Source: Saccharomonospora sp. NB11 (lineage in GTDB: Bacteria; Actinomycetota; Actinomycetes; Mycobacteriales; Pseudonocardiaceae). From it: 64,000 bases of DNA. The notes under the pieces were generated by a model. It was not told the origin of the DNA, did not search any database, and saw only the letters and a list, made by a program, of their open reading frames with translations. The DNA lies in the NCBI RefSeq assembly GCF_015910535.1, contig NZ_JACBJG010000009.1, forward strand, positions 124,001 to 188,000. Reading direction: 5' to 3'. Position 1 is the stretch's first letter, and each line of letters starts with the position of its first letter. A program made the translations under genes and the position numbers. Positions 16,356-58,147 of this stretch are shown here, in pieces.

Positions 16356-16358
16356 GAC

Positions 16359-37571: not shown

Positions 37572-37581
37572 GGGACTGATC

Positions 37582-43295: not shown

Positions 43296-43305
43296 GGGCT
43301 GGGGG

Positions 43306-43311
43306 TACGCT
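43306..43311 (+). promoter_or_regulatory. candidate rnpB -10 element
   Basis: TACGCT lies 6-9 bp before the predicted 5' end of RNase P RNA, a suitable -10 position. The promoter would sit in the 25-bp gap after the RNase H gene. Confidence 0.45.
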
Positions 43312-43320
43312 CTGTCGCGT

Positions 43321-43719
43321 GGACGAGTTGGCAGGGCGGCCGCGGTCGGAGGCGACGCCTCCGGTCGAGGAAAGTCCGGACTCCACAGGGCAGGGTGGTT
43401 GCTAACGGCAACCCGGGGTGACCCGCGGGACAGTGCCACAGAAAACAGACCGCCCGGCCGTCACGGCCGGGTAAGGGTGAAACGGTGGTGTAAGAGACCA
43501 CCAGCGCCTCGGGTGACCGGGGCGGCTCGGTAAACCCCACCCGGAGCAAGGTCAAGAGGGAGCCGTCAGGTTCCTGCGCAGGCGTTCGAGGGCGGCCCGT
43601 CCGATGCCTGCGGGTAGACCGCTTGAGCCTGTCGGCGACGGCAGGCCCAGATGGATGGTCGCCCATCGTCCGCCGCGAGGCGGGCGTGGACAGAATCCGG
43701 CTTACATGCCAACTCGTCC
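43321..43719 (+). ncRNA. rnpB: RNase P RNA (class A)
   Basis: The catalytic RNA that matures tRNA 5' ends. The ends pair as P1: GGACGAGTTGGCA (43321-43333) with TGCCAACTCGTCC (43707-43719). Universally conserved blocks are present: GAGGAAAGTCCGGACTCC near 43367, ACAGTGCCACAGAAA near 43430, GGGTAAGGGTGAAACGGTG, and near the 3' end GGACAGAATCCGGCTTAC. Length (~399 nt) and order are typical of actinobacterial type A RNA. CTCTCGTGCGAGAG at 43721-43734 may be a terminator hairpin, with a CTTTTT run about 15 bp later. Confidence 0.95.
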
Positions 43720-44229
43720 TCTCTCGTGCGAGAGCGGGTCGTGGCGCGCTTTTTCGTGATCACCGGGCGGGCGGTCGCGTCTCAGGCACGCCAGCACCAG
43801 TGGGATCGTCGTGCCCCAGCACAGCAGCACCACTCCCGCGCTCGTCAGCGTTGTCGGGGTCGGTGAGTCGACGTCATGACCACTGTGGTGCAGAAGCCAC
43901 GTGTACACGGAGAGCGCCCACGCGGCCGACCAGGCCACCGTCCCGAACCAGAGCGCGGCTCGTGTTCCGCGCCGGCGTCGCCCATGCCACACAGCGACGG
44001 CGACGCATGCCGCGACCATGGTCGGCAGATGCAGGAACAGCACGAGAGCGCCGATACCGTCGGCTGTGTCGATCTCGTCGAACGACACCGGCTGTCCCGT
44101 GAGATAGCGGTGCCAGAGAACGGCGTCGTACCACTCGACAGCGTGCAGAGCCGTTCTCAGCACCGCCTCCGTCACGAGCAGCGCGGCGACGACTCCGGTC
44201 GTCCGCGTCTGCGTCACAGCTCGGTTCAC
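43702..44229 (-). CDS. four-helix membrane protein
   Basis: A 175-residue protein with four hydrophobic helices: VVAALLVTEAVLRTALHA, IGALVLFLHLPTMVAACVAVAV, AALWFGTVAWSAAWALSVYTW and AGVVLLCWGTTIPLVLACL. I do not recognise the family. GTG 44229 overlaps the stop of the upstream 65-residue gene (GTGA). Its last 18 bp lie antisense to the 3' end of rnpB. Confidence 0.65.
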   Translation of the reverse strand: MNRAVTQTRTTGVVAALLVTEAVLRTALHAVEWYDAVLWHRYLTGQPVSFDEIDTADGIGALVLFLHLPTMVAACVAVAVWHGRRRRGTRAALWFGTVAWSAAWALSVYTWLLHHSGHDVDSPTPTTLTSAGVVLLCWGTTIPLVLACLRRDRPPGDHEKARHDPLSHERGRVGM

Positions 44230-44423
44230 TCCGTCGTCCACTCGGGGCGCGGGGTCATCCGGAAGGTCAGGTAGTCGACCGTCCAGCCGTCCTTGGTCTG
44301 GCTCCGCTCGACGACGACGGTGCGGTCGAAGCCCGCCTCGTCGCGGTAGGCGCGTTCGTGCCAGCGGCGGATCTGCTCGACCCGCTCGGCCGGCATCCAT
44401 GGGCGGTGCGGCTGGTCGCTCAT
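44226..44423 (-). CDS. small hypothetical protein
   Basis: A complete 65-residue protein: MSDQPHRPWMPAERVEQIRR…, ending in YLTFRMTPRPEWTTE. Charged, with two Trp-containing motifs, no membrane segment. Not a family I can name. The codon pattern is strongly GC3 and the gene is coupled by 4 bp to the downstream membrane protein, so I treat it as real. Longer upstream readings are shadows of the plus-strand SCO6745-type gene. Confidence 0.6.
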   Translation of the reverse strand: MSDQPHRPWMPAERVEQIRRWHERAYRDEAGFDRTVVVERSQTKDGWTVDYLTFRMTPRPEWTTE

Positions 44424-44552
44424 GCGGGCAGGGTATGGCCGCCGCTCTCCCTCGAACACCGGATTTCCGTTCCGGCACACGCGCGGAGCCATCGTCGTCG
44501 TGCGTGGTCGTGGATCTTCCCGGCGAGGGCGCGCGGCCCTAGGGTGTGCTCC

Positions 44553-45416
44553 ATGGACCGTGCGCTTGCCCGCGAACTCGCCCATCGCTGCCACAACGCG
44601 GTGGAGCCGTTGCACGCCTTCGTCTACTTCTCGCCCGAGATGGAACAGACCTTCGCCGGTGCGGGTCTCAAGGCGGGGCGCAGGGCGTACTTCGCCGGCC
44701 GCGCCGCGCCGCTGGGTCCGGTGGGCGCGACAGTGGTCACCGCGACGTTCTACAACTTCAGCCCGAGGCTCGTGGAGCGCCACATTCCTGAGGCGTGGCG
44801 GGTGGTGGCTCCGGCCGAGGTCGTGAACCTGAGGTTCTCCGCCGCCGAGGCCGGGTTGCGCAGGCTGCTCGGCGAGGCGGCGGACTCGCCCGAGGTCGGG
44901 GAGCTCGGGGAGTTGCTGCGGGAGGCCGCCGGGCAGGCTCCGGCGGAGGGGCGGGCGCTGTTCGCCGCGCACGCCGACCTCGACTGGCCGGACGGTGCCG
45001 TGGCGAGGCTGTGGCACGCCGCCACCCTCCTGCGTGAGTTCCGTGGGGACGGGCACATCGCCGCGCTCGTCGCCGAGGGGCTGTCCGGGCTCGACGCCCT
45101 CGTGACGCACATCGCCACGGGCAAGAGCTTCCGCGCCGACGTCGCCCGCGAGACGCGTGGCTGGACGGAGGCCGAGTGGTCCGCCGCCGAGGACGCGCTG
45201 CGCGAGCGCGGCCTGCTCGACGACACCGGCGCGCTCACCGACGCGGGGCACGCGCTGCGGGCGGCGGTCGAGGAGCGCACCGACGCGGCCGCGACGGCCC
45301 CCTACCGCAAGCTCGGCGAGGACAAGGCTCGCCGCATCGTCGAGCTGGCCAAGCCGCTGTCGCGGACGCTGCTCAAGGCCGGAGGCATCCCTCGCGAGCT
45401 GTTCGCCCGCGGCTAG
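44553..45416 (+). CDS. SCO6745 family protein
   Basis: A 287-residue all-helical protein of the actinobacterial SCO6745/SalK family. Recognisable segments are ELAHRCHNAVEPLHAFVYFSPE, ATFYNFSPRLVERHIPEAW and GLSGLDALVTHIATG. The C-terminal third (WSAAEDALRERGLLDDTGALTDAG) is winged-helix-like, so DNA or small-molecule binding is possible; the function is unknown. A run of palindromes follows the stop. Confidence 0.8.
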   Translation: MDRALARELAHRCHNAVEPLHAFVYFSPEMEQTFAGAGLKAGRRAYFAGRAAPLGPVGATVVTATFYNFSPRLVERHIPEAWRVVAPAEVVNLRFSAAEAGLRRLLGEAADSPEVGELGELLREAAGQAPAEGRALFAAHADLDWPDGAVARLWHAATLLREFRGDGHIAALVAEGLSGLDALVTHIATGKSFRADVARETRGWTEAEWSAAEDALRERGLLDDTGALTDAGHALRAAVEERTDAAATAPYRKLGEDKARRIVELAKPLSRTLLKAGGIPRELFARG

Positions 45417-45652
45417 GTCCGCGTTCGCCCTCGCCGGGCGAGGTGTCACGGCCCGTGACCGGCTGCGCGGGTCGCTCGGTCGGATCGCCGTGGGCGATAC
45501 GCCCGTTCGGATGAGGTCCGGACCCGCTGCCTGGGCAGGCAGCGCGAGTGTTGTGATCTCCGTGCCGCAACCGGCCCGAGGCATGATTCACTGTCTTAGC
45601 GGTCACCGACCGAGGGACTTTCGGCACACACTGTGAAGGGGCGTCGACGAGC
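45417..45652. other. intergenic region with three palindromes upstream of the T4SS-like cluster
   Basis: Three perfect inverted repeats stand here: CCTCGCC-G-GGCGAGG (45429-45443), GTCACGG-C-CCGTGAC (45445-45459) and GCTGCCT-GGGC-AGGCAGC (45526-45543). The last would make a good hairpin without a T-tract; the first two look more like protein-binding palindromes or tight stems. The promoter of the downstream cluster should lie here or just beyond, but I cannot point to a convincing -10. Confidence 0.5.
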
Positions 45653-45922
45653 ATGAGTGAGTTCGGGCACGCCGGGGGACACCCGCGCGGGCACCGTGCG
45701 AATCGTCACGGCGGCGTCCTCGAACTGGGGGACGTGCACGTCCCGGTGTGTGGGGTCACGCAGGGAGGTCCGGTGGACGGGGCACGGTGCCGGACCAGAC
45801 CTTTGACCCCCATCCGTCATCACGCCATGATGTTGGATGAACACGGCACGTGCCGGACGATCAGCGCTGCGCACATCCGTGTACGGCACCACACACCCCG
45901 GGCACTCGGGAGCATGCGATGA
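45653..45922 (+). CDS. doubtful 89-residue open frame at the head of the cluster
   Basis: ATG 45653 opens a frame of 89 residues rich in His and Arg (MSEFGHAGGHPRGHRANRHG…). It resembles no family I know, and third-position GC falls in its second half. Its one favourable feature is a 4-bp ATGA overlap with the next gene. It may instead be an untranslated leader. Confidence 0.25.
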   Translation: MSEFGHAGGHPRGHRANRHGGVLELGDVHVPVCGVTQGGPVDGARCRTRPLTPIRHHAMMLDEHGTCRTISAAHIRVRHHTPRALGSMR

Positions 45923-46182
45923 CCACGATGACGCTTGCGACACTCGCGCAGGCCGAGCTCGACACCGGCAACGTCCAGAACTGGATTCTCGACAACATCA
46001 TTCCGCTGGTGTTGCTGTCCGTCGCGCTGCTGCTGCTGTGGCTCGGTGGCGGCAAGGGCGACAACGCGGGCGTCATGCGCAGGCTCGCGGGCGTGGTGAT
46101 CGCTCTGGCGATCATCGGACTCGCCGTGAGCGGGATGGGCGTCGACGTCGGTCAGTGGCTCGCCAGCCTCTTCACGAGCTGA
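45919..46182 (+). CDS. small two-transmembrane protein, first gene of the T4SS-like cluster
   Basis: An 87-residue protein: MTTMTLATLAQAELDTGN, then helix 1 (IIPLVLLSVALLLLWLGG), a short basic loop (KGDNAGVMRRL) and helix 2 (GVVIALAIIGLAVSGMGV). Size and topology recall the small membrane components (TcpD- or VirB2/3-like) found in Gram-positive conjugation clusters; this is inferred from context. It is followed after 15 bp by the TcpE-like gene. Confidence 0.75.
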   Translation: MTTMTLATLAQAELDTGNVQNWILDNIIPLVLLSVALLLLWLGGGKGDNAGVMRRLAGVVIALAIIGLAVSGMGVDVGQWLASLFTS

Positions 46183-46197
46183 CGTAGGGCACGCGCG

Positions 46198-46677
46198 GTG
46201 CGAATCCGAACCGACGACGAGATCTACCGCGTCGACGCAGTCTGGCTGGGGCCGCCGAAGGCCACGTTCCCGTGGCGTGCGCGCTATGTGGCGTGGGGCG
46301 TGGGAGTCCCGCTGTTCCTCGTCGTGCTGGCCGTCGAGCGGCAGATCGGCATCGGCTTCGACTTCTTCTCCACGGCGTGGGGGCTGGTCATCACCATCGC
46401 GCTCACCCGCATCATCACGTCGAAGATCAGCCACGAGCGTCCGCTCGGTGCCGTGTTCACGATGTGGTTCCGCGAACTGCACGCGCCTCGGGAACGTCGG
46501 ACTCCCACGGGAGGTGCCGCGAGCGCGAGCAAGATCAGAGTCAACCGGGAGCGGCCGCGACCTCGAGCCAGACGCCGAGGCGGAGGCAGACGTGGGGTGG
46601 CCCCGCCACCCGCCCCGTATCCGCCAGACAGCCCAGCACGAGCGCGCCGTCGCCCGCCGGCGGCGGTCGGGAGGTAG
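46198..46677 (+). CDS. TcpE-like conjugation membrane protein
   Basis: A 159-residue protein starting at GTG 46198. After IRTDDEIYRVDAVWLGPPKA two adjoining hydrophobic segments (YVAWGVGVPLFLVVLAVE; FFSTAWGLVITIALTRII) form a hairpin in the membrane, followed by RPLGAVFTMWFRELHAPR and a very basic Arg/Pro tail. This resembles the TcpE/PrgI-type partner always encoded just before the VirB4-type ATPase in Gram-positive systems. It ends 3 bp before the ATPase. Confidence 0.7.
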   Translation: MRIRTDDEIYRVDAVWLGPPKATFPWRARYVAWGVGVPLFLVVLAVERQIGIGFDFFSTAWGLVITIALTRIITSKISHERPLGAVFTMWFRELHAPRERRTPTGGAASASKIRVNRERPRPRARRRGGGRRGVAPPPAPYPPDSPARARRRPPAAVGR

Positions 46678-46680
46678 TCG

Positions 46681-49593
46681 TTGTTCGGTCGCGGCAGTAG
46701 CCGGAAGGCCCAGTACCCGGCACCAGCGCAACAGGCCGAGAGCGGCCGCCGAGGCAGGCGGCTCCCCGGCGAGGCGGCCATTCCCAGCTACACGCCGTCG
46801 ATCGCGGCTCGCTCGATCGACGGGCACCTCCTGCGCACGGGTCAGGAGGTGTACGCGTGGTACCGGCTGGCGCCGCAACGCTGGTCGTTCCGGTCGGACT
46901 CACAGCGGCGCGACCTCATCGCCGCGATCGCCGGTCAGTACGCCGAGCTGCAGGGCCGGTGGATGCACCTGCGGGTCACCAACCGGCCCTATCCCATCAG
47001 GATGTGGGCGGAGGCGCACGTCCACAACGCGCACAACCGCCCGCCGGACGTGTCGGGCGCGTTGTCGTTCGACGACTACCTGGTCGGCGAGCAGCAGCAG
47101 TTGATGGGCCGCTCGATGGCGGAGAAAGAGGTCTACCTGGGGGTCCAGGTCCAGACCAGGCGGATGGTCGACCGGGCGGTGGAACGCGCCGCGCCGTTGC
47201 TGCGCAAGATCCTGCCCGAGGCCGTCGACGCCGAGCTGGCCGCGCTGGACTCGGAGGTCGAGCACCTCGACCAGGTGATCGGTGCTCCCGGCCTGGAGGG
47301 GCGACCGGTGCACGCCGAGGAGATGTCCTGGCTGATGCACCGCTCGTGCTCGCTCGGGCTGCCCGCGCCGAGGAACATGCCCGCCGTGCCCGGCTCCGAG
47401 TGGGAGCCGGAGGACCTCGCGAGTTTCACCGACGCCGCGGACTTTCACTGCGAGCCCTACGCGCCCACGGTCACGGTCCGAGGCCGGACCGGCTCCAACG
47501 CGGGCGTGTCGCGCCACGTCGCCGTGCTCACGGTGGGGCAGATGCACGGCCTCTCGATTCCCGAGGTGGACGACCCGTGGGTCCAGCACGCCGACCGGTT
47601 GCCGTCGGCGGTGGAGTGGTCCGCGCGCATCTACGTCCGCAGGCCCGAGGAGGTCGCGGGCGAGCTGCAACGGCAGATGAACAAGGTGCGCTCGCAGGTC
47701 AAGCACTACACCGACGAGCACGATCTGGAGCCACCGCAGTCGTTGGCCCGCCAGGCGTCGCGGGTGCTGGAGATCGACGACGAGATGACGTCGGGCTTCA
47801 CGGCCCTGGCCACACGGGTGCGGTCGTGGTGGCGGCTCGCGGTGTCGGGGCCCACGGAACGCGACGCGCTGCGGCTCGCGCAGCAGCTGCTCGATCTCTA
47901 CAAGCCGAAGGTCGCCATCGAGCACCCGGAGGCGCAGTACGCGCTCGCGCGGGAGTTCATTCCCGGCGAGCCGTTGTCCTCGGGTGCGTACCTCCGGCGT
48001 GGTTCGGTGGTGTGGGCCGCGTCGGCGGTGCCGACCGCGACCGCCGAGGTGGGCGACCGGCGCGGCATCCTGCTCGGCGAGACGTGCACGGCCACGCGCA
48101 GGCCGGTGGCGTGGGACCCGTGGATGGCGCAGGAGGTCCGCGACGGCTCCGGCCTGACCGCGATGGTCGCCGGTCTCGGTGGCGGCAAGTCGTTTTTGGG
48201 CGGCGGCATCGTCTACAAGACACTGAGAGCAGGCGCGCACTGGACGATCCTCGACCCGTCGGGGCCGCTCTCGGCGTTGTGCGCGCTGCCGGAGATCCGC
48301 CCGTACGCCCGTCCCATCAACCTGCTCAACGCACAGCCGGGCATCCTCAACCCGTATCGCGTCGTGGCGGAGCCCCAGCTCGAACACTTCCTCGACGAGG
48401 AGGACCCCGAGCGTGCGTGGCGACGGGAACGCGCGCTGGCGGGTGCGACCCGGCGGCGGCTGGTGCTCGACGTGCTCACCGGTGTGCTGCCGTACGAGGT
48501 CGCGCGCATGCCGCAGACCCGCATCGTCTTGCTGCGCGCGGTGCGTGCGGTCGGCGGTCGCTACGACGCCGACCCCGGCCAGGTGATCGACGCCCTGCGG
48601 CGGGACGCCAGCGAACATCACGAACACGCCGTCGTCGTGGCGGACTTCCTCGACGAGCTGCGGGAACGCATGTCGCTGCTCATCCCGGAGGCCGACGCCG
48701 ACCCGTACTCGGAGACCCGTGACGACCGGCTCACGGTGCTGACGATGGCCGGGCTGACGCTGCCGAAGGAGGGCGTGGGCCGGGAGCACTGGACCGACGC
48801 GGAGGCGCTGGGCGTGGAGATGCTCAACCTCGCCGCCTGGCTGACGCAGCGGTCGGTGTACGAGAAGCCGAAGAAGGAGCGCAAGGGCGTCTGGATCGAC
48901 GAGGCGTTCTTCCTCTCCGAGGTGCCGACGGGGCGCGTGCTGATGAACCGGTTCGCGCGCGACTCCCGCAAGTGGAACGTGCGGGTGCTGCTGTCGTCGC
49001 AGATCCCGGCGGACTTCCTGCGCATCCAGGGCTTCGTCGCGCTGCTCGACTCGGTGTTCGTGGGACGGCTCGACGACGACGAGACCCAGTCGGACGCGCT
49101 GCGCCTGCTCAAGGTGCCGGTGGGTGTCGGCTACGAGCAGGTCGTCGCCGCACTCGGGCGCAGGCCCGGTTCGCGCCGCGACGTCGAGCGTGACACCGAA
49201 CCGAGGCAGTTCATCTTCGCGGACGGCGCCGGTGGCGTGGAGCGCATCCGGGTGGACTTCTCCGGCCCGCACCTCGATCACTTGCGGGCGGCGCTCGACA
49301 CCACCCCCGGTGCGCTGCCGACCGGTGAGCGGCGGCCACAGCGTGCCGAGCGGACCACGGAAGAACCGCGTGACGTTTCCGACGTGCCCGCACCGGAACC
49401 CGAGCCGGAGCTGGACGAGGAGTTCGAGCGCGCGGCGGAACGCGAGGTCGGCCTCACCGAGGAGGCGTTGTTGGAGGACGCCGACTCCGGCGCGACGACC
49501 AACGGGACGCGCGAGGCCAACGAGACGGGCAAGGCGGTCGACAAGGAGCCCGCGGGAGCGGGCAAGGGTGGCACCGGCAGGGGCGCGGCATGA
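46681..49593 (+). CDS. VirB4/TcpF-like secretion ATPase
   Basis: A 970-residue protein starting at TTG 46681. The N-terminal ~480 residues match no motif I can name but contain the APTATAEVGDRRG turn typical before VirB4 P-loops. Walker A is AGLGGGKSF (about 498-504), Walker B is GVWIDEAFFL (about 735-744), and SRKWNVRVLLSSQIPADF is the VirB4 motif beyond it. A Glu-rich tail ends the protein. VirB4-type ATPases energise assembly of, and substrate passage through, conjugation/T4SS channels. It has no membrane segment and overlaps the VirB6-like gene by 4 bp. Confidence 0.82.
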   Translation: MFGRGSSRKAQYPAPAQQAESGRRGRRLPGEAAIPSYTPSIAARSIDGHLLRTGQEVYAWYRLAPQRWSFRSDSQRRDLIAAIAGQYAELQGRWMHLRVTNRPYPIRMWAEAHVHNAHNRPPDVSGALSFDDYLVGEQQQLMGRSMAEKEVYLGVQVQTRRMVDRAVERAAPLLRKILPEAVDAELAALDSEVEHLDQVIGAPGLEGRPVHAEEMSWLMHRSCSLGLPAPRNMPAVPGSEWEPEDLASFTDAADFHCEPYAPTVTVRGRTGSNAGVSRHVAVLTVGQMHGLSIPEVDDPWVQHADRLPSAVEWSARIYVRRPEEVAGELQRQMNKVRSQVKHYTDEHDLEPPQSLARQASRVLEIDDEMTSGFTALATRVRSWWRLAVSGPTERDALRLAQQLLDLYKPKVAIEHPEAQYALAREFIPGEPLSSGAYLRRGSVVWAASAVPTATAEVGDRRGILLGETCTATRRPVAWDPWMAQEVRDGSGLTAMVAGLGGGKSFLGGGIVYKTLRAGAHWTILDPSGPLSALCALPEIRPYARPINLLNAQPGILNPYRVVAEPQLEHFLDEEDPERAWRRERALAGATRRRLVLDVLTGVLPYEVARMPQTRIVLLRAVRAVGGRYDADPGQVIDALRRDASEHHEHAVVVADFLDELRERMSLLIPEADADPYSETRDDRLTVLTMAGLTLPKEGVGREHWTDAEALGVEMLNLAAWLTQRSVYEKPKKERKGVWIDEAFFLSEVPTGRVLMNRFARDSRKWNVRVLLSSQIPADFLRIQGFVALLDSVFVGRLDDDETQSDALRLLKVPVGVGYEQVVAALGRRPGSRRDVERDTEPRQFIFADGAGGVERIRVDFSGPHLDHLRAALDTTPGALPTGERRPQRAERTTEEPRDVSDVPAPEPEPELDEEFERAAEREVGLTEEALLEDADSGATTNGTREANETGKAVDKEPAGAGKGGTGRGAA

Positions 49594-51602
49594 ACACGAT
49601 CATGACGTTGGTGGCCGTCGTCTGCTGCGCGTGGGCGTGGCGGGCGATGCGAACACGTCGTCGTGGCGGCACGGTGCGACGCAGGGGTCCTGCGCTCGCC
49701 ATGGTCGTCGCGGTGCTCGGACTCCAACTGACGATCGCGGCACCGGCGACGGCACAGAGCGGCTGCGAGGTGCCGAATCCCGAGCGCCCGGGCTCGGGCA
49801 TGGTGGGCGAGATCGACGAACCCGGCGTCAAGGGTGAGGCGGGCAGCCCGTACCTGGACTACAGCTACGCCGGCATGGTCTGGCACGTCTACGACTGCGA
49901 CGAGGGCGTGCTGAGCCTCGGCTCGCCGGAGTCGACCATCGACACGTGGGCGGGCAACCAGCTCTTCAACATCGCGAAGAACATCGTCGGCGCCACGAAC
50001 TCGCTGCACTACACCGTGCTGGAAGGCGGGCTGCTCAACCCGATCTACAACGCGGTGTCGGAGGGCGCGAAGGCCGTCTACGACAACATCTACACCCAGT
50101 TGTTCGGCCTGTTCGCGCTGCTGCTGGCGATCCTGTTGTTCCGCAACATCTGGCGGGGCGATCTGTCCACGGTCAGCAAGCGCGCGTTGTTCGCGATCGG
50201 GGGCGTGTGGCTGGCCGCCTCGTCGCTGGCGTTGCTGCGGTACTACGACGACATCGACCACGCGATCGTCCAGACCACCACCAACATCCAGGCCGGTTTC
50301 GTCGACGAGACCGAGGACCGGGTGGTGCGGCACGTGCTGCCCACCGACCTGCACAACGAGGTGGTCTACAAGAACTGGTTGCGCGGCGAGTTCGGCGACC
50401 ACGATTCGCCCCAGGCCGAGCAGTACGGTCGTGACCTGCTCGACGCGCAGGCGTTCACCTGGGAAGAGGTGCGCAACGGCGACGACGCCGACGAGGCCGT
50501 GATCGAGGAGAAGAAGTCGGCCTACCGGGAAATCGCCACGCAGCTCGGCCCGGCGACGGGCAACTTCACAGGCGAGGACGGAAGCCGGACCGGCGTCGGG
50601 TTCCTGGCTTTGTTGCAGAGTCTCTGTTACGCGCTGTTCCAGTTGTTCGCGAAGGCGGCGGTGCTGCTGGCGCAGATTCTGGTCCGGGTGTTCACGCTGA
50701 CCGCGCCGCTCATCGGCTTGGTCGCGATCCTGCATCACGACATCCTGCGGCGCGTCGGCCGAGTCGTCGGCACCGTCACGTTCAACCTGCTGGTGTTGTC
50801 GGTCCTCGCGGGTGTGCAGGCGTTGTTGCTGCGGGCCGTGTTCGACGCGACCGGGTTGTCGATGCTGACGCAGATGGCCGTGGCAGGCCTGATCACCGTG
50901 TTGCTGTTCATGGTCGGCAAGCCCGGGCGGCGGCTGTGGCAGATGGTCGAGATGTCTGTCGGGATGGTCGGTGCCGCCGTGCCGACCCCGAAGGGCGGGT
51001 TGTTCTCGCGCTTCCGCCGTGGCGGCGACCGGCCGAGCCCACAGGACGAGTTCTGGAAGACCGTCGCGGAGGAGGACGCCGCCGAGGGCGGTGCGGCGAC
51101 GCGCGGCACTGCCGGTGCGCTCGGCGACGGTCGGGGTCGTCCGGAGGCGACGATCATGGCGACGGCCCAGCGGCTCGACACGCGCGCGGCAGGGGGACAC
51201 CCGGCGACCCTGTGGTCGCCCGAGCGGGCCGCGTTGCCCGCGGGTGGCAGCGATACGTCCGATGTGTACGGCGGGTTCACCCCGAGCCGTTCGCCCGGCG
51301 ACTACCTGCGGCCCGGTTCGGCCGGCAGCCGCAGGGTCGACACGGCCCCGGTGACCGAGTCGCGGTGGGACCGCGTGGACGATCCGGACCCCGTCGTGAT
51401 TCCGTCCCGACTGTCGTCGATGGACGATCCGGTGGTGCCGCCGTCTCCCGGGTTCTCCGCGGCGCCGCCCGCGCCCGTTCCGCAGCCGCGGCGGGTGGAG
51501 CACGAGCTGGTGGCGGGCAAGCCCGTGTTCGTGCTGTACCGGCCGTCGCGGGGCCTGGAGGTTCGCGACGACGGTCGGGACACCGACCGCGTGGTCCGGT
51601 AA
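49590..51602 (+). CDS. VirB6/TcpH-like polytopic channel protein
   Basis: A 670-residue membrane protein. Two N-terminal hydrophobic stretches, the second ending APATAQSG like a signal peptide, lead to an exported segment and then helices LFGLFALLLAILLF, LFAIGGVWLAASSLALL, LLAQILVRVFTLTAPLIGLV, VTFNLLVLSVLAGVQALLL and VAGLITVLLFMVG. A long, charged, Pro-rich cytosolic tail (~200 residues) ends VFVLYRPSRGLEVRDDGRD. The layout is that of VirB6/TcpH channel proteins. ATG 49590 overlaps the ATPase stop (ATGA). Confidence 0.78.
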   Translation: MNTIMTLVAVVCCAWAWRAMRTRRRGGTVRRRGPALAMVVAVLGLQLTIAAPATAQSGCEVPNPERPGSGMVGEIDEPGVKGEAGSPYLDYSYAGMVWHVYDCDEGVLSLGSPESTIDTWAGNQLFNIAKNIVGATNSLHYTVLEGGLLNPIYNAVSEGAKAVYDNIYTQLFGLFALLLAILLFRNIWRGDLSTVSKRALFAIGGVWLAASSLALLRYYDDIDHAIVQTTTNIQAGFVDETEDRVVRHVLPTDLHNEVVYKNWLRGEFGDHDSPQAEQYGRDLLDAQAFTWEEVRNGDDADEAVIEEKKSAYREIATQLGPATGNFTGEDGSRTGVGFLALLQSLCYALFQLFAKAAVLLAQILVRVFTLTAPLIGLVAILHHDILRRVGRVVGTVTFNLLVLSVLAGVQALLLRAVFDATGLSMLTQMAVAGLITVLLFMVGKPGRRLWQMVEMSVGMVGAAVPTPKGGLFSRFRRGGDRPSPQDEFWKTVAEEDAAEGGAATRGTAGALGDGRGRPEATIMATAQRLDTRAAGGHPATLWSPERAALPAGGSDTSDVYGGFTPSRSPGDYLRPGSAGSRRVDTAPVTESRWDRVDDPDPVVIPSRLSSMDDPVVPPSPGFSAAPPAPVPQPRRVEHELVAGKPVFVLYRPSRGLEVRDDGRDTDRVVR

Positions 51603-51614
51603 GGGGGCACGGGG

Positions 51615-52250
51615 ATGCCGATTCGCACGAACCGGGGCAGGGCGGCGGTCTATCGCCGCCTCTGGGGCTTCCCCATGCGCTCGCCCTCGCACCTCGTGGG
51701 CACCGTGGTCGTCGTCGCGGCGATCCTCGTGGCGGCAGGTGTGCTGGTGCCGAGACTGGTGGGGGAGAAGCAACCGACCTCGCCGGTCACGGGTGCGGCC
51801 GGCACCACCTCGGAGCAGTCGTCGCCGGACAGCACCACCGAACCCAGTCTGGACCGCGAGACGCTGCCCACACGGTTGTCCGAACCACTCGTCACACCCA
51901 CCCCCACCCAGGCTGCGCCGGAGGCGTTGGCGGTGGCGACGCAGTGGGTCGAGGCCTGGGTGGACGTGCCCGACGAGGACACCACTGAGGACACCGGTGA
52001 GGACGCCGCGGAGACCTGGGTCGAGGGCCTGCGTCCCTACACCACACCGGAGTTCCTGCCGCAGTTGCGCACCGTGGACCCGGCCAACGTCACGGCGACG
52101 AAGGTCGTCGGCGAACCGAAGGCCCGTACGGCGTATCCGCGGTCGGTCGAGGTGGAGATCGCCACCGACGGGCCCACGCTGCTCGTCACGGTGATCGACA
52201 CCGACGAGGGGTGGAAGGTGACGGCCTACAGCGAGGCGGAGAGCGGGTGA
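51615..52250 (+). CDS. TcpC/VirB8-like bitopic protein
   Basis: A 211-residue protein: short basic cytosolic head, one transmembrane helix (LVGTVVVVAAILVAAGVLV, about 28-46), a Thr/Pro/Ser linker, and an exported domain with VATQWVEAWVD, RPYTTPEFLPQLRTVD and VEVEIATDGPTLLVTVIDTD, which fits an NTF2-like fold as in TcpC and VirB8. Twelve bp after the VirB6-like gene, with GGGGGCACGGGG upstream of ATG. Confidence 0.7.
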   Translation: MPIRTNRGRAAVYRRLWGFPMRSPSHLVGTVVVVAAILVAAGVLVPRLVGEKQPTSPVTGAAGTTSEQSSPDSTTEPSLDRETLPTRLSEPLVTPTPTQAAPEALAVATQWVEAWVDVPDEDTTEDTGEDAAETWVEGLRPYTTPEFLPQLRTVDPANVTATKVVGEPKARTAYPRSVEVEIATDGPTLLVTVIDTDEGWKVTAYSEAESG

Positions 52251-52257
52251 GGTTGCC

Positions 52258-53247
52258 GTGCGTGCCGGACTGCTGATCGGATGTGTCGCCGCGGTGAGCG
52301 TCACGGTGCTCGTGGCCGCGGGCGCGGTGCTGGTGATGGACGGTCAGCGGCAGCAGGCCCACGCCATGTCCCTGAGCTGCAACGCGGCGCTCGGCCCGAC
52401 CCAGCCGGGACAACAGCATCGCGGTGCGGTCGACGCGGCCAACCTCACCCAGGAACAGCTCGACACCGTCTCGCTGATCATCTCGATCGGCAAGGAGCGG
52501 GAGCTCTCACCGCGAGCGTGGCAGGTCGCGATCCAGGCGGGCATGACCGAGTCGGGGCTGCGCAACGTCCACTACGGCGACCGCGATTCGCTGGGCATCT
52601 TCCAGATGCGGCCGTCCATGGGCTGGGGCACACCGTCGGAGGTCACCGACCCGACCTACGCGGTCAACAAGTTCTACGACGTCCTGGAATCCCTTCCGGA
52701 CTGGGAACAATTGCGCCCGGGTGACGCCGCCCAGGCGGTGGAGCGCTCGGCGTTCCCGGACCGCTACCACCGCTGGGAGCCCATGGCGGTGCATCTGGTG
52801 GAGACGGTGGGCGAGGTGACCGACTCCGGTGGTTGCGGCATCGGACTCGGGGCGGCCCTGCCACCGAACGAGGACGCCGCCGAGGCGATCCGGTTCGCCC
52901 TGGAGGAGCGCGGCGACCCGTACGTGTGGGGCGCCACCGGACCGGACGCCTACGACTGTTCCGGCCTGATGCTGCGGGCCTACGAGGCAGCCGGGATCAC
53001 CCTGCCGCGGGTGTCCCGCGACCAGTACAAGGCGGGGGCGATGCTGCCGGTGGAACAGGCACAGCCCGGCGACCTCGTCTTCTGGGCCTACGACTCGTCG
53101 GACCCGGCGACGATCCACCACGTCGCCATGTACCTGGGCAACGGCAAGATCGTGGAGGCTCAGCAGTCCGGTGTGCCCGTGCACACGCGGGACTTCTCGT
53201 TCGACGAAGCCGGTCTGGTGCCGCAGGCTGTCCGGCCGGGTGTGTGA
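52258..53247 (+). CDS. two-domain cell-wall hydrolase (lysozyme-like plus NlpC/P60)
   Basis: A 329-residue exported muramidase/peptidase like TcpG/VirB1. An N-terminal membrane anchor (LLIGCVAAVSVTVLVAAGAVLVM) is followed by a lysozyme/SLT-like domain (QAGMTESGLRNVHYGDRDSL; GIFQMRP) with Glu in TESGL, then an NlpC/P60 peptidase domain with catalytic Cys234 (AYDCSGLM) and His288 (IHHVAMYLG). Such enzymes open peptidoglycan for the secretion channel. Seven bp after the TcpC-like gene. Confidence 0.9.
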   Translation: MRAGLLIGCVAAVSVTVLVAAGAVLVMDGQRQQAHAMSLSCNAALGPTQPGQQHRGAVDAANLTQEQLDTVSLIISIGKERELSPRAWQVAIQAGMTESGLRNVHYGDRDSLGIFQMRPSMGWGTPSEVTDPTYAVNKFYDVLESLPDWEQLRPGDAAQAVERSAFPDRYHRWEPMAVHLVETVGEVTDSGGCGIGLGAALPPNEDAAEAIRFALEERGDPYVWGATGPDAYDCSGLMLRAYEAAGITLPRVSRDQYKAGAMLPVEQAQPGDLVFWAYDSSDPATIHHVAMYLGNGKIVEAQQSGVPVHTRDFSFDEAGLVPQAVRPGV

Positions 53248-53256
53248 GGAGACGTC

Positions 53257-54174
53257 GTGGCCAAGAAGTGGGGCAAGCGCAGGAAGTCGACCCCGGTGGT
53301 GGTGCCGCAGGCGTTCGAGGCCGCTTTCGCGGCCCGGCCGCAGGCGCGGCCGTCGGCTCCGCGGGCGGGACGCGCTCCCGCGTCGAGCACGCCGCTGGCC
53401 GACCAGTTGTCCGGCGACGCGCCAGGGGTGAGCGAGAACTACGTGGTGCTGCCGCGCTCGCTCGCCGAGAACATGCCGCTGCCGTGGCAGCAGCAGCTCG
53501 CCGGGTTGCTCGCGCAGTTCCAGGAGACTCACCGGAATCTGTCGTGGCCGACGTACCGGGTCGTGCCGTCCCGACCGGAACGTCTGGTGGACCTCGACGA
53601 GGAACAACTCGCGGAGGCCGGTTACCTGGTGGAACTCGACGCCGACGGTGAGATGGTCTACCGCGACCGCACCGGGCGACGGGTCGAGAACCCGGAGGAG
53701 ACCGTGGCGCTCGTGCCGTGCCTCGACCCAATCGCCCGGAGGGCCGACGACGGCGCGGCGGGCCAAGACAAGCCCGGTGTCGCGCCGATGAACATCGGTC
53801 CACAGCCGGTGTGGCGAGCCACCGGTTCCGCGCCGGCGAGTCCCACGCCGTCCGGCCAGGCCGCGCCGCCCTTGCCGCCACCGCCGACCGCGCCGACCCT
53901 CGCGCCACCGCCCCAGTCGGCGACCCCGGCTCCGGCAGCGAACGTGGCACCGAGCCCGACGCCGTCGGCGGGCGAGCCCGGATGGGCTGAGGAGCTGGCC
54001 TCGGCGAGCACCCTGTCCACCACACCGGGTCCCTCCGCGTCGGTGGACACGCCGACGCCTCCGGAGGCCAGGCCGGACGCCGGTGGTCGGAGCGGCTCGG
54101 ACGACACCGCCCCGCCCGAGTTCGGGCCGACGGGCGACGAGCCGACCGAGATTCCCTACCGCTTCCGCCGCTGA
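53257..54174 (+). CDS. soluble Pro-rich protein, last gene of the T4SS-like cluster
   Basis: A 305-residue protein. The basic start (VAKKWGKRRKSTPVVVPQ) is followed by a folded-looking part (LPRSLAENMPLPWQQQLAGL; WPTYRVVPSRPERLVDLDEE; GYLVELDADGEMVYRDRTG) and a ~130-residue Pro/Ala/Ser-rich, disordered C-terminus. Not a family I recognise. With 9-bp spacing and GAGGAG before its GTG it belongs to the cluster; a substrate, adaptor or accessory role is possible. Confidence 0.65.
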   Translation: MAKKWGKRRKSTPVVVPQAFEAAFAARPQARPSAPRAGRAPASSTPLADQLSGDAPGVSENYVVLPRSLAENMPLPWQQQLAGLLAQFQETHRNLSWPTYRVVPSRPERLVDLDEEQLAEAGYLVELDADGEMVYRDRTGRRVENPEETVALVPCLDPIARRADDGAAGQDKPGVAPMNIGPQPVWRATGSAPASPTPSGQAAPPLPPPPTAPTLAPPPQSATPAPAANVAPSPTPSAGEPGWAEELASASTLSTTPGPSASVDTPTPPEARPDAGGRSGSDDTAPPEFGPTGDEPTEIPYRFRR

Positions 54175-54197
54175 GCGCGCGACGCTGGAGCTGACGC

Positions 54198-54236
54198 GCG
54201 GTTCGACCGCTCTTGATGATCAGCGGTTCCACCGCT
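54198..54236 (+). terminator. double hairpin after the T4SS-like cluster
   Basis: Two short related stems follow the last gene: GCGGT-TCG-ACCGC (54198-54210) and AGCGGT-TCC-ACCGCT (54222-54236). They could end the long transcript; no T-tract. Confidence 0.4.
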
Positions 54237-54270
54237 ACCGCCCCAGGTCGGTCCGTGCCACGCTGACACC

Positions 54271-54492
54271 ATGGCAGCCAAACGCAAGGACCCGAACCCG
54301 CCCAGCGGCTGGTGGTACAACACGCGCACCGGCCAGGTCGAACACGGCGAACTGTCGCGCGCCATCGACCTCATGGGGCCCTACCCCGACGAGGCGACCG
54401 CCCGCAACGCGTTGGAGATCGCCAGAGAACGCACGAAGCGCGCCGACCGCGAGGAAGCCGAGTGGGAGGGCGAGGACGTCGACGAGCGCTGA
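54271..54492 (+). CDS. small SPOR-like conserved protein
   Basis: A 73-residue protein, MAAKRKDPNPPSGWWYNTRT…, conserved in actinobacteria and often labelled SPOR-domain-like: GQVEHGELSRAIDLMGPY and PDEATARNALEIARERTK. Soluble and charged. Its true role is unknown; peptidoglycan binding is doubtful since it lacks an export signal. Confidence 0.75.
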   Translation: MAAKRKDPNPPSGWWYNTRTGQVEHGELSRAIDLMGPYPDEATARNALEIARERTKRADREEAEWEGEDVDER

Positions 54493-54602
54493 GCGCCGGA
54501 GGCCTCTGCCGGCGTCCGAGATCCCACGATCCGCCGCGCCCCGGGCGGTCGACGCTTCGCCGACTTCGGCGACCTCCCCGCACCTCGGGTTAGTGTCGAG
54601 TT

Positions 54603-56021
54603 GTGGCTCTCGTGGCTCACGGCACGGGCGCCGGCGACTTCGCCTCGCTGCGCGCCGAGTTCGCGCTGCCGGAGTCGTTCCCACCGCAGGCGCTGGCCGA
54701 GGCCGACGACGTCGCCGGTGATCTCGTGCCGTGTCCGGGCGTCCGGGAGGACGCGACCGACCTGCCGCTGGTGACCGTCGACCCGCCCGGTGCCAAGGAC
54801 CTCGACCAGGCCATGGCGTTGACGCGCCGTGGGCGCGGATTCCGTGTCGACTACGCGATCGCCGACCTCGGCGCGTTCGTGGCTCCGGATGGTGCGCTCG
54901 ACACCGAGGCCCGACGACGCGGCCAGACGCTCTACCTGCCCGACGGCAACGTGGGCCTGCACCCGGCGATCGTCGCCGAGCACGCGGCCAGCCTGCTGCC
55001 CGGTGTCGTCCGTCCCGCGGTGTTGTGGACGCTCGACCTCGACGCCGACGGTGAGCCCGTCGATGTCGCCGTCCGCCGAGCCTGGGTGCGTTCGGTGGAG
55101 CAGCTCGACTACGACACCGTCGCCGAGAGCCTGCGTCGGGGAACACCGCACCCGTCGGTGGAGGCGTTACCGGACGTGGGGCGCCGACGACGCGAGCGCG
55201 CGGCGGGTCGTGGCGCCGTGGAGCCGCAGATTCCCGAGTCGCGGGTGCAGGCGGAACCCGACGGTGGGTGGGCGCTCGTGCGTCGCCCTCAGCACGACGT
55301 CGAGGAGTGGAACGCCGAGATCTCCCTGCTCACGGGCATGGTGGCCGCGCAGATGATGATCGACGCCCGGGTGGGGGTGCTGCGGACCGTGCCCGAGGCC
55401 GGAGACGAAGCCGTCGAGTGGCTTCGCCGATCGGCCCACGCGCTCGGGGTGCCGTGGCCGGAATCCGCGAGCGTCGCCGAGGTGCTCGCGGGCCTCGACC
55501 CGGTGGACCCCGCGTCCCTGGCACTGCACGCGGGGACGGTGCGACTGCTGCGGGGCGCCGGATACACGGCCTTCGACGGCCGGGTTCCCGAGTCGATCGG
55601 ACACGCGGGCATCGGCAGTCCGTACGCGCACGTCACCGCGCCGATCCGGCGCTTGGTCGACCGGTTCACCGCCGAAGTGTGTCTGGCGATCTCGGCGGAC
55701 GCGCCGGTGCCGGAGTGGGTGCGGTGCACGCTGCCGGACCTGCCCCGGTTGATGGGCGCGTCGGACGAGCGGGCGTCGCGAGTGGAACGAGCCTGCCTCG
55801 ACCAGGTGGGTGCGTGGATCCTCGCCGAGCGGGTCGGGACGACGTTCGAGGGCGTGGTGTTGCGGTCCGGCGGCTCGGCGGCGGAGGTGTTCGTGGAGGA
55901 CCCGCCCGTGCTGACCCGTTGCGCCGACGTGACCGTTCCCGAAGGCAGCACGATCACCGTGCGGCTCACCGAGGTCGATGTCGCCAATCGGAGGGTGCGC
56001 TTTGAACAGGCGGAGTGCTGA
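54603..56021 (+). CDS. RNB-domain exoribonuclease (RNase II/R family)
   Basis: A 472-residue ribonuclease. The catalytic Mg site lies in TVDPPGAKDLDQAM (DPxxxxDxD pattern) with VDYAIADLGAFV following. YAHVTAPIRRLVDRF is the family's second signature. It is shorter than E. coli RNase II or R and lacks cold-shock and S1 domains, as in the compact actinobacterial/plant-type branch. The GTG start is at 54603. The stop overlaps the DUF4326 gene by 20 bp. Confidence 0.88.
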   Translation: MALVAHGTGAGDFASLRAEFALPESFPPQALAEADDVAGDLVPCPGVREDATDLPLVTVDPPGAKDLDQAMALTRRGRGFRVDYAIADLGAFVAPDGALDTEARRRGQTLYLPDGNVGLHPAIVAEHAASLLPGVVRPAVLWTLDLDADGEPVDVAVRRAWVRSVEQLDYDTVAESLRRGTPHPSVEALPDVGRRRRERAAGRGAVEPQIPESRVQAEPDGGWALVRRPQHDVEEWNAEISLLTGMVAAQMMIDARVGVLRTVPEAGDEAVEWLRRSAHALGVPWPESASVAEVLAGLDPVDPASLALHAGTVRLLRGAGYTAFDGRVPESIGHAGIGSPYAHVTAPIRRLVDRFTAEVCLAISADAPVPEWVRCTLPDLPRLMGASDERASRVERACLDQVGAWILAERVGTTFEGVVLRSGGSAAEVFVEDPPVLTRCADVTVPEGSTITVRLTEVDVANRRVRFEQAEC

Positions 56022-56409
56022 GCACGTCGACGACGAGACGCGCGGCTGGACGGACGAGGAGCGGGCGTTGCGCGAGCAGGTCCTCGCCGGCCGGAGCGTG
56101 GTCGTCAACGTCCGCAAGTCGGGCCCGCACCGGCATCTCGTGCCGTGGCTGGTGGAGCGGGACCTCGTCACCTACGTCGGACACGCCGGAAACCGGCACG
56201 CCTGGCCCGAGTCCGACTTCGCCAACCCGTTCGTCAAGGAGGCCAAGCACGACCGCGAGGCCATGGTGCGGCACTACCGGGACTACCTGCGTGAGCAGCC
56301 GGAGTTGCTGCGGCGGCTGCGGGAGGGCGAGCTGAACGGTCGAGCCCTGGGGTGCTGGTGTGCCCCCGAGCCCTGCCACGCCGACGTTCTGGTGGAGTAC
56401 ACGGCATGA
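56002..56409 (+). CDS. DUF4326 protein
   Basis: A 135-residue protein with the DUF4326 pattern: VVNVRKSGPHRHLVPWLV, YVGHAGNRHAWPESDFANPF and GCWCAPEPCHADVLVEY, whose Cys-x-Cys…Cys-His may bind metal. Function unknown; related phage and bacterial proteins are linked to nucleic acid metabolism. TTG 56002 with GGAGGG just upstream is preferred to ATG 55978. It overlaps both its neighbours (20 bp and 4 bp), making a three-gene operon. Confidence 0.75.
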   Translation: MNRRSAEHVDDETRGWTDEERALREQVLAGRSVVVNVRKSGPHRHLVPWLVERDLVTYVGHAGNRHAWPESDFANPFVKEAKHDREAMVRHYRDYLREQPELLRRLREGELNGRALGCWCAPEPCHADVLVEYTA

Positions 56410-57188
56410 GAGACGATCTGGGTGACGAGGTGCCGCTTCGCCGACCTGCGCGCCGGGTGGTGTCGTTGGTGCCGTCGTTGACGGAGGCGGTGGCGGAGAC
56501 GGTGGCGGACGTGCTGGTGGGGGCGACCGACTACTGCACCCATCCGGCCGGGCTGGACGTCACGCGGGTGGGCGGGTCGAAGTACCCGACTCTCGCCGCC
56601 GTGCTGGATTGCATCCCCGACCTGGTGATCGCCAACGCGGAGGAGAACCGCCCGGAGGACGTGCGACGGTTGCGGGACGAAGGTGTCGCCGTGTGGGTCA
56701 CCGCCGCCCCCGCGACGGTGCCCATGGCGTTGGAGTCGATGCGGGCCCTGTTCACCGAGGCGTTCGCGGTGCCGATGCCCGAGTGGTTCACCGAGGCCGA
56801 ACGCGCCTGGAAGGACCCGGTGCCCGTGCGGGTCCGCGCCGTCGTGCCGGTGTGGCGCAAGCCGTGGGTCGTGCTGGGGCGCGACACCTTCGGCGGGGAC
56901 GTGTTGCACCGGCTCGGTGTGCACAACGTCTACGCCGACCACGCCGACCGCTACCCGCGTCCCACGATCGACGAGCTGCGGGCCCGGTTCTCCGACGGCG
57001 ACGCCGAGCTGCTCGTCCTGCCCGACGAGCCGTACGTGTTCACTGACGACGACGGGCCGGACCACTTCCCCGGGGTGCCCTACGCGCTCGTCTCGGGGCG
57101 TCGGCTCACGTGGTACGGCCCGTCGCTGGCCTACGCCCGGGCCGAGTTGGAGGCTTCGTTGGGCTCGGCGCTCGACGGCGTCTCCTGA
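56406..57188 (+). CDS. helical-backbone metal receptor fold protein without export signal
   Basis: A 260-residue protein resembling periplasmic cobalamin/haem/siderophore-binding proteins (BtuF-like): RRVVSLVPSLTEAVAETV, GATDYCTHPAGLD, VGGSKYPTLAAVLDCIPDLVI (in part) and DVLHRLGVHNVYADHADRYP. It has no signal peptide or lipobox and no ABC transporter beside it, so it may be a cytosolic binding protein. ATG overlaps the DUF4326 stop (ATGA). Its last 58 bp overlap the convergent iminopeptidase gene. Confidence 0.82.
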   Translation: MRDDLGDEVPLRRPARRVVSLVPSLTEAVAETVADVLVGATDYCTHPAGLDVTRVGGSKYPTLAAVLDCIPDLVIANAEENRPEDVRRLRDEGVAVWVTAAPATVPMALESMRALFTEAFAVPMPEWFTEAERAWKDPVPVRVRAVVPVWRKPWVVLGRDTFGGDVLHRLGVHNVYADHADRYPRPTIDELRARFSDGDAELLVLPDEPYVFTDDDGPDHFPGVPYALVSGRRLTWYGPSLAYARAELEASLGSALDGVS

Positions 57189-58147
57189 CCGGCGAACGTG
57201 TCCGTGGCCCGACGCAACGCGGCGGAGACACCGGGGTCGGTGATGGCGTGCCCGGCACCGTCGAGCAAGGTCAACTCCGAGTCCGGCCACGCGCGGTGCA
57301 GCTCGAACGCGGTGACCGGAGGACACACCACGTCGTAGCGGCCTTGCACGATGTGGCCCGGAATGCCCGCGAGTCGGTGTGCGTCCCGAATGAGCTGGCC
57401 CTCGTCGAGCCACGCGCCGTGTGTGAAGTAGTGCAGGGCGATGCGGGCGAACGCCACGGCGAAACGTGGGTCCGAGTACTGCGCGACGAAGCCCGCCTGC
57501 GGTGCGATCGACACGAGCGCACCCTCCCAGGCGCTCCACGCGACGGCCGCGCGCTCGGCCAGCTCGCGGTCCGGCCCCTCGATCAAGTCACGGTAGGCCA
57601 CGAGCAGGTCACCGCGGGCCGAGGGCGGCACCAGTTCGACGTAGCGCTCCCATGCGTCGGGGAAGAACTGCCTCGCCCCGCCGTTGTAGAGCCAGTCGAG
57701 TTCCGACCGGCGGGACGTGATCACCCCGCGCAGCACCAGCTCGCTCACCCGTGACGGGTGGGTTTCGGCGTAGGCGAGCGCGAGAGTGGCGCCCCACGAG
57801 CCACCGAAGACGAGCCAGCGGTCGATGCCGAGCTGCTCGCGGAGCGCCTCCATGTCCGCGACGAGGTGCCAGGTCGTGTTCGTCGACAGGTCGGCGGCGG
57901 GATCGCTGACGTGGGGTGTGCTGCGACCCGATCCGCGCTGGTCGAACTGCACGATCCGGTAGCGAGTGGGGTCGAAGTACCGGCGGTACACGGGGGAGCT
58001 GCCACTGCCCGGACCGCCGTGGACGACGACGGCGGGCTTGCCGTCGGGATTGCCACTGACCTCCCAGTACACCTGGTGGCCGTCACCGACGTCGAGCAGA
58101 CCCGTGGTGTACGGCGAGATCGGCGGGTACAGGACGTGTGGGGACAC
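57131..58147 (-). CDS. pip: prolyl iminopeptidase
   Basis: A 338-residue alpha/beta-hydrolase peptidase (S33) releasing N-terminal proline. HGGPGSGSSP oxyanion loop, FDQRGSGRSTPH, nucleophile elbow GGSWGATLALAYAETHP, acid in GRYDVVCP and His in DGAGHAITDP are all at family positions. The His-Gly-Gly-Pro segment distinguishes prolyl iminopeptidases from general esterases. Cytosolic. The 3' end overlaps the metal-receptor gene on the other strand. Confidence 0.92.
   Translation of the reverse strand: MSPHVLYPPISPYTTGLLDVGDGHQVYWEVSGNPDGKPAVVVHGGPGSGSSPVYRRYFDPTRYRIVQFDQRGSGRSTPHVSDPAADLSTNTTWHLVADMEALREQLGIDRWLVFGGSWGATLALAYAETHPSRVSELVLRGVITSRRSELDWLYNGGARQFFPDAWERYVELVPPSARGDLLVAYRDLIEGPDRELAERAAVAWSAWEGALVSIAPQAGFVAQYSDPRFAVAFARIALHYFTHGAWLDEGQLIRDAHRLAGIPGHIVQGRYDVVCPPVTAFELHRAWPDSELTLLDGAGHAITDPGVSAALRRATDTFAGQETPSSAEPNEASNSARA

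Follow-up and report, generated by a model that had tools for sequence, protein, structure and literature searches.

Seven genes of a type IV secretion apparatus

The 64-kb window analysed here (the whole stretch of 64,000 nucleotides from contig NZ_JACBJG010000009.1 of Saccharomonospora sp. NB11) contains at 45919-54174 a tightly packed cluster of seven open reading frames (ORFs), A to G, all on the + strand, which represents a type IV secretion system (T4SS) apparatus of the FA type (Tcp/ICEBs1-like). An earlier reading of the DNA letters (the original prediction) had placed seven same-strand genes with spacings of -4 to 15 bp at this location, and this layout is confirmed, with gaps from A to G of 15, 3, -4, 12, 7 and 9 bp (Table 1). 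The parts recognised are a VirB4/TcpF ATPase with Walker A and Walker B motifs, a VirB6-like protein, a VirB8/TcpC-like protein and a hydrolase of the VirB1 type.

The ATPase C, proposed earlier as VirB4-like, matches AAA_10 (E 2e-19), the VirB4-like structure 4ag5 in the PDB (E 1e-12) and the NCBIfam model TcpF (E 9e-18, far under that model's own cut-off), and its Walker A lysine K503 and Walker B residues D740-E741 are invariant in 17/17 aligned homologues. The VirB6-like assignment of D is likewise upheld by a match to NF046089 (CD3337/EF1877; E 9.7e-10), but this match lies under the model cut-off of 120 bits. For F, the expected pairing of a lysozyme with an NlpC/P60 domain is found: the protein matches NLPC_P60 in Pfam (E 2e-24), and its N-terminal part matches the muramidase 8b2e in the PDB (residues 72-181, E 8e-9). 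A further PDB match is the Tn916-like CTn1-Orf17 (4hpe). E has no Pfam match, and PF12642 (TcpC) fails on the window protein. Its predicted structure shows an NTF2-like fold with TraM of pIP501 and TcpC as best matches, Foldseek alone giving weak matches, and in this model E matches the VirB8/TcpC folds; the proposed TcpC/VirB8 likeness is thus retained for the predicted fold and not for the profile.

The two small proteins are less easily assigned. A possesses the two hydrophobic segments described before, and we add a tentative VirB2/TcpD-like label to it. It matches TcpD with E 0.011, and among 28 homologues, three match the TrbC/VirB2 pilin profile PF04956 (best 2.2e-4) and three match TcpD. 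Two of the 28 match LptF_LptG more strongly (2.9e-6), which is probably due to hydrophobicity. B had been called TcpE-like. PF12648 (TcpE) does not match the window protein and is found in 1/24 homologues (E 0.008), next to further weak matches to other profiles, so that B owes the label "TcpE-like" to its place in the operon, its size and its pair of hydrophobic segments; a small gene stands at the position of B in each of nine plasmid loci that were read.

Table 1. Genes and predicted promoter of the cluster (positions within the window)
Feature	Position	Strand	Size and composition	Assignment
Predicted promoter	45803..45831	+	TTGACC-N17-CATGAT, conserved, 5' of the operon	sigma-70-like
A	45919..46182	+	87 aa; two hydrophobic segments and a charged loop	VirB2-pilin/TcpD-like (tentative)
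B	46198..46677	+	159 aa	TcpE/ConD/VirB3 position (by position and size)
C	46681..49593	+	970 aa	VirB4/TcpF-type ATPase
D	49590..51602	+		VirB6/ConG-like membrane protein
E	51615..52250	+	N-terminal helix, then a single NTF2-like domain	VirB8/TcpC-like
F	52258..53247	+	muramidase-like and NlpC/P60	wall hydrolase, CwlT-like
G	53257..54174	+	conserved ~110-aa core, variable Pro-rich linker, C-terminal FGPTG..PTEIPYR tail	
H	54271..54492	+	73 aa	usually 3' of the cluster; membership uncertain

Conservation and selection in the Pseudonocardiaceae

The ATPase gene was followed through 249 genomes of this family of soil actinomycetes, an even draw from a larger group that includes the NB11 genome. 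VirB4 is present in 249/249 genomes, 46/46 genera and 228/228 of the good genomes, with a single match in most of the 249, and it was also present in 37/37 genomes of a first set. The patchy distribution and strain-specific insertion that the original prediction had named as marks of an ordinary integrative and conjugative element (ICE) are therefore not seen; occurrence is universal in the family genomes searched and the site is common to many genera. The complete series A to G was present in 20/20 loci of a first family set, which represent 19 genera. In a larger set of 80 loci, 73 extend across the whole cluster, of which 69 have A to G in order, the four misses being two assembly gaps and two loci with an ORF in the place of G. 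Upstream, the genes for NIF3, CT398 and RNase H accompany the cluster in 16/20 loci of the first set, and downstream, RNB is found in 56/70 and another neighbour in 59/68 of those loci of the larger set that have enough flank. The small gene H follows in 18/20 loci of the first set and in 63/72 of the larger set with enough flank; its product has no Pfam match and no match in 37 loci from outside the family.

Within the cluster, conservation in the larger set is highest for A and C, with median identities of 79.5% for A and 84.6% for VirB4, compared to 62-72% for the neighbours NIF3, CT398, RNase H and RNB, and the mean distance of VirB4 is 0.15 vs 0.32-0.43 for flanking genes. Mantel tests of VirB4, D and F against five flanking genes gave correlations of r 0.67-0.88 that were reached in 0/999 permutations (33-59 loci with both genes present), and comparison of flank with flank gave 0.80 and 0.59 as control. 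The ratio of nonsynonymous to synonymous substitution rates (dN/dS) is 0.07-0.27 across the seven genes in two within-genus pairs, the range being that against locus L061; for A and B it is undefined in one pair, where there are zero differences. The low dN/dS together with the conservation throughout the family implies that the cluster is more than a row of chance ORFs. In the second comparison, A and B (45919-46677) show no DNA difference at all to locus L060 (genome G003), at a synonymous divergence (dS) of ~0.3-0.5 in the neighbours. This identity is a recent local recombination tract.

The predicted promoter 5' of the operon is conserved as well. Its 8-mers CTTTGACC and CCATGATG occur in 47/79 and 48/79 upstream regions, respectively, and in a control with one random piece per locus from the same loci, any 8-mer was found at most 14 times.

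The last protein of the cluster, G, had been described as an unknown Pro-rich protein. It does have a Pro-rich linker and no match to Pfam or NCBIfam, but it is a two-part protein: alignment A3 resolves a core of ~110 residues with many invariant positions, a Pro/Ala/Gln-rich linker and a C-terminal tail. The core is predicted to be of alpha/beta type and has no confident fold match. The tail motif is present in 43/80 loci of the larger set, among them Saccharomonospora, Prauserella, Amycolatopsis, Thermocrispum and some others, and is found in none of the loci of Lentzea, Saccharothrix, Umezawaea and Actinokineospora. The length of G ranges from 147 to 1041 aa in the 59 loci from which it was extracted, proteins cut by contig ends being excluded. 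Several Amycolatopsis loci (L173, L180, L181, L192, L202) have a G of 808-1041 aa that has grown in the linker, with core and terminal motif kept.

Elsewhere in the window, at 36225-38961, the genes for a HATPase protein, a Roadblock/LC7 protein and an ATP_bind_1 protein follow each other, a row that we take to be a conservon-like operon.

Absent mobility genes and plasmid relatives

No tRNA gene occurs in the 64-kb window, and, as predicted for direct repeats, no exact repeat of at least 18 nt was found within 43300-57200; the best pair with one upstream copy has 18 nt at 94% identity, and its second copy lies within G. The marks of a conjugative element, namely a coupling ATPase with the T4SS, patchy distribution, varied sites and attachment (att) repeats, are lacking. 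An ordinary ICE was rejected as explanation, as the cluster is found throughout the family and is largely syntenic. A decaying ICE remnant would explain why neither a relaxase nor a coupling protein is linked, but the low dN/dS in all seven genes, the invariant catalytic motifs and the presence in 249/249 genomes speak for purifying selection, and we reject this explanation as scarcely credible.

The whole-genome search for an unlinked relaxase or coupling protein, suggested in the original prediction, gave a mixed picture. The NB11 genome has no TrwC relaxase, with integrases and other relaxase families not searched genome-wide, and its contig C12 carries one Replic_Relax gene (E 7e-42) that was encountered beside a VirD4-like gene, the sole and weak TraG-D_C match of the genome. 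This pair belongs to an unlinked type of element with VirB4-like and VirD4-like ATPases and Replic_Relax, seen on C12 (L100, 8218-11849) and in L102 (3213-11498), where a relative of the VirD4-like gene adjoins a VirB4-like ATPase of its own. The C12 gene, as part of another type of element, was set aside as coupling protein of the cluster. It could nevertheless be thought that the apparatus still serves conjugation, in trans, for mobilizable plasmids or ICEs which supply a relaxase and a coupling protein themselves, given the C12 pair and the TrwC matches in 15/50 genomes searched (some of them from outside the family). We consider this quite improbable, since the relative in L102 is already equipped with a VirB4-like ATPase and since service to parasites fails to explain the universal retention of the cluster and the conservation of its VirB4 above that of its neighbours.

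The contig of the window has no FtsK-family match. In NB11, C3 and C21 have such matches, C26 has two and C12 a weak one; from their size and score, we take these proteins to be FtsK, EccC and a 923-aa FtsK-domain protein (C3:87580-90336). The latter could be the coupling ATPase, encoded elsewhere, of a two-part exporter for DNA or protein. Long orthologues (E <1e-55) occur in 14/15 genomes of the family and in 5/10 other genomes of the same order with a VirB4 match, and in 0/11 genomes of the class with a distant VirB4, 0/23 that yielded no VirB4 and 0/6 of Streptomyces (65 genomes searched overall, grouped by earlier VirB4 searches, with few candidates per genome scored in the large ones). 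Besides this co-occurrence with VirB4, a paralogue lies ~6 kb from VirB4 in G050 and G253. However, these two genomes are of one genus, and G019 contains the cluster but not the protein, which can therefore not be obligatory. A shorter match (E 4e-36, 33%) exists in G107, where no VirB4 was found, the next best matches are frames of 1300-1500 aa that we read as EccC-like by size, and the co-occurrence may reflect shared ancestry. In G004, where the match of the coupling-protein profile is the FtsK-domain protein, the 923-aa protein lies near a dynamin-family gene, a neighbourhood that also speaks against a partner of the cluster. At L103 (7734-14590), its neighbours are small proteins and a gene of the dynamin family. 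We thus think it improbable that this protein completes the apparatus.

The closest mobile relatives are found on plasmids. VirB4 relatives occur in 89 plasmid records, all less than 60% identical to C; the 30 listed have 33-43% identity, the best of these 42.6%. Examples of such actinobacterial operons are those of Streptomyces sp. 891-h (NZ_CP050694), Pseudonocardia p1 (NZ_CP080522) and Rhodococcus erythropolis pRLCBG43. Nine plasmid loci were read, and they share the A to F order of two small genes, ATPase, large gene, small gene and wall hydrolase, the hydrolase being of metallopeptidase type in the Rhodococcus locus and split in the Gordonia locus. Unlike the cluster, these operons are plasmid-borne, and in 8/9 an ATPase annotated as FtsK or type IV coupling protein (T4CP) is nearby, with L241 as exception within the stretch read; a ParA-annotated gene is in the stretch in 7/9. 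Seven of the coupling-type ATPases form one family and that of L246 is weakly similar to it. None of the eight has a match at E 1e-4 in 100 family loci (up to 10 kb per side, some truncated where the contig ends; certain species are represented twice). The ATPase of L240, compared with 24/24 family genomes, gave only short motor-domain matches (best E 1e-8) to chromosomal FtsK-size and other proteins.

In one of the plasmids, L245 of Streptomyces, a homologue of the G core follows directly after F (15990-16436; 34% over 105 aa, E 8e-10), and the other 36 of the 37 non-family loci, including the other eight plasmid loci, have no match to it. The idea that G as such was gained by the family was rejected because of this homologue. 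Judged from these sequences, the core probably belonged to the mobile ancestor or was shared with one, and the family itself seems to have added linker and tail. A VirB4 tree with 26 rows unites the four rows of the family in one clade (100/99) on shorter branches, to which plasmid lineages are neighbours (93/98). The simplest history suggested by these data would be that the cluster was captured from a plasmid around the time when the family arose, followed by loss of the coupling gene and slow vertical evolution.

We therefore regard the cluster very probably as a domesticated FA-type T4SS apparatus that is ancient, has been inherited mostly vertically and, unlike its relatives on plasmids, lacks a linked coupling ATPase and relaxase. 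The tests that were run support the earlier view of a domesticated, minimal envelope-spanning half of a Gram-positive T4SS with no linked relaxase or coupling protein.

Known systems, proposed working and possible role

The Tcp/ICEBs1-type (MPF_FA) systems of Firmicutes share with the cluster a TcpF-type VirB4, a VirB6 of the CD3337/EF1877 type, a VirB8 with TcpC/TraM-like fold and a hydrolase with lysozyme and NlpC domains. The cluster differs in that no TcpA/ConQ or relaxase is linked, E has one NTF2 domain, and G is extra. The T4SS of Patescibacteria are likewise chromosomal in a monoderm host, mostly without relaxase, and taken as co-opted, but they are of the FATA class, have VirB2-like pilins and belong to another host lineage (PMC12102498).

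The cluster is not unique among actinobacteria, as comparable orphan clusters exist in Streptomyces (cmd) and in other families. In L081, L082 and L083, from outside the Pseudonocardiaceae, one lies beside infC-rpmI-rplT (genes confirmed by Pfam in L082). In family f31 (series L090-L099), VirB4 is 78-98% identical across eight further loci, with ychF upstream in 4/8 and sdh downstream in 3/8 (genes confirmed in L091 and L094). In both cases the cluster sits between housekeeping genes, with no linked T4CP or TrwC. VirB4 copies of 26-28% identity in G046, G040 and G059 lie 6-12 kb from a T4CP, as is expected of ICEs.

The cmdABCDEF genes of Streptomyces (SCO4126-4131) resemble the cluster in being chromosomal and conserved, with a VirB4-like protein and a mycelial actinomycete as host; they differ in gene order, in a split VirB4 and in that the T4CP-like CmdA is kept. 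The cmd mutants showed delayed aerial growth, branching, 6-8% anucleate spores and impaired chromosome segregation, whereas plasmid transfer was unaffected (data not shown there) and the cmdA mutant looked normal (PMC2782261). A later transposon screen concerned with actinorhodin also brought up cmdBCDEF (PMC6585502). The published cmdB primer site is found, with up to 3 mismatches, in 70/199 Streptomyces genomes. Two cmd loci that were read encode a small transmembrane protein, VirB8-like, VirB6-like and PrgI/VirB4-N-like proteins, a VirB4 ATPase half and the T4CP-like CmdA, the names beyond Pfam matches being our reading. The primer named K404A in PMC2782261 spans the Walker A motif ESGNGKS (L232, 8454-9884); in these Streptomyces orthologues, the lysine of that motif is at position 90. 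Another study mentions a defective ICE near mid-chromosome in all Streptomyces strains studied (PMC9513070), and our guess is that the cmd cluster is a candidate for it. Direct orthology of the two systems was rejected, given the different gene order and the failure of a profile to find CmdB (see below).

For the working of the apparatus, we propose that it has been chromosomal since about the origin of the Pseudonocardiaceae and has been passed on mainly vertically. From its domains, F would open the peptidoglycan locally, and D and E, by homology and fold, would form the membrane base. C, with its intact and invariant motifs, would hydrolyse ATP to assemble the apparatus, perhaps moving the VirB2-like A. 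As no VirD4/TcpA-type coupling protein was found at the locus, the choice of substrate would fall to C and/or G. The folded core, the flexible Pro-rich tether and the conserved terminal peptide of G suggest an adaptor or a tethered substrate, both options being possible; T4SS substrates commonly carry their signals at the C-terminus. Its core would have arrived together with the operon or with a related one, with tether and tail as additions of the family. As to the role, an envelope function owned by the cell in mycelial growth or differentiation, by analogy with the distantly related cmd as the best functional analogue, is the leading candidate, which we put forward tentatively. The domesticated apparatus, the proposed working and the cell-owned role together are our best explanation overall, and we hold it to be reasonably likely.

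The substrates could also be the cell's own DNA or protein, selected by VirB4 and the adaptor G and passed through the hyphal envelope, which would make the cluster a bacterial counterpart of archaeal Ced that is core to the whole family; we think this unlikely, though worth keeping in mind. The archaeal Ced/Ted systems are domesticated sets of VirB4, VirB6 and VirB2-like pilin homologues with no known relaxase that move cellular DNA (PMC9905601). In such a machine, own DNA would move between hyphae or kin cells with neither relaxase nor classical coupling protein. This would agree with the strong conservation of A and C, the presence of D, the VirB2 matches of some A homologues and the coupling-type ATPases of the plasmid relatives, and the identity of A and B with those of G003 implies that DNA moves between these species by some route. 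However, an identical tract of this kind can arise without a dedicated machine, VirB2 is matched only weakly, and no linked gene for DNA processing was recognised, HerA/NurA, competence and recombination genes not having been searched for. Ced/Ted differ in being archaeal and in that their transfer of DNA has been shown. A machine of this kind is in our view a rather doubtful explanation of the cluster.

Several observations weigh against the domesticated apparatus with a cmd-like role. The upstream neighbours are rarer in the larger set (NIF3 43/74, CT398 44/74, RNase H 56/75), and in G015, the only genome read of its genus, the cluster has different flanks and a VirB4 of 64% identity; the surroundings are rearranged in places, and conservation of the site is extensive but incomplete. 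It is also conceivable that a coupling protein acts in trans. The branching between family and plasmid VirB4 is moderately supported (93/98), so that plasmids may instead have captured chromosomal clusters, and the G core in L245 fits either direction of transfer. Compared for the ATPase only, cmd and the cluster are distant, with an hhalign probability of 95.9 for CmdB and C at 19% identity over 352 columns. The A1 profile missed CmdB in 4/4 Streptomyces genomes that hold the cmdB primer site, the weak matches there being RecD-like helicases in our reading, and a wall hydrolase was not seen in the two cmd loci read. Because CmdB is distant and order and content of cmd differ, the developmental role of the cluster is an analogy only.

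In the open-licence PMC literature we found no earlier description of this cluster. It means that a whole bacterial family, antibiotic producers included, has kept intact a T4SS that is more conserved than its neighbours and is without linked parts for conjugation. Such core clusters may explain some of the apparent defective ICEs in actinomycete genomes. If the reading as a bacterial counterpart of Ced is true, the orphan clusters at shared sites, beside infC-rpmI-rplT or ychF/sdh, would point to a recurrent strategy of actinobacteria.

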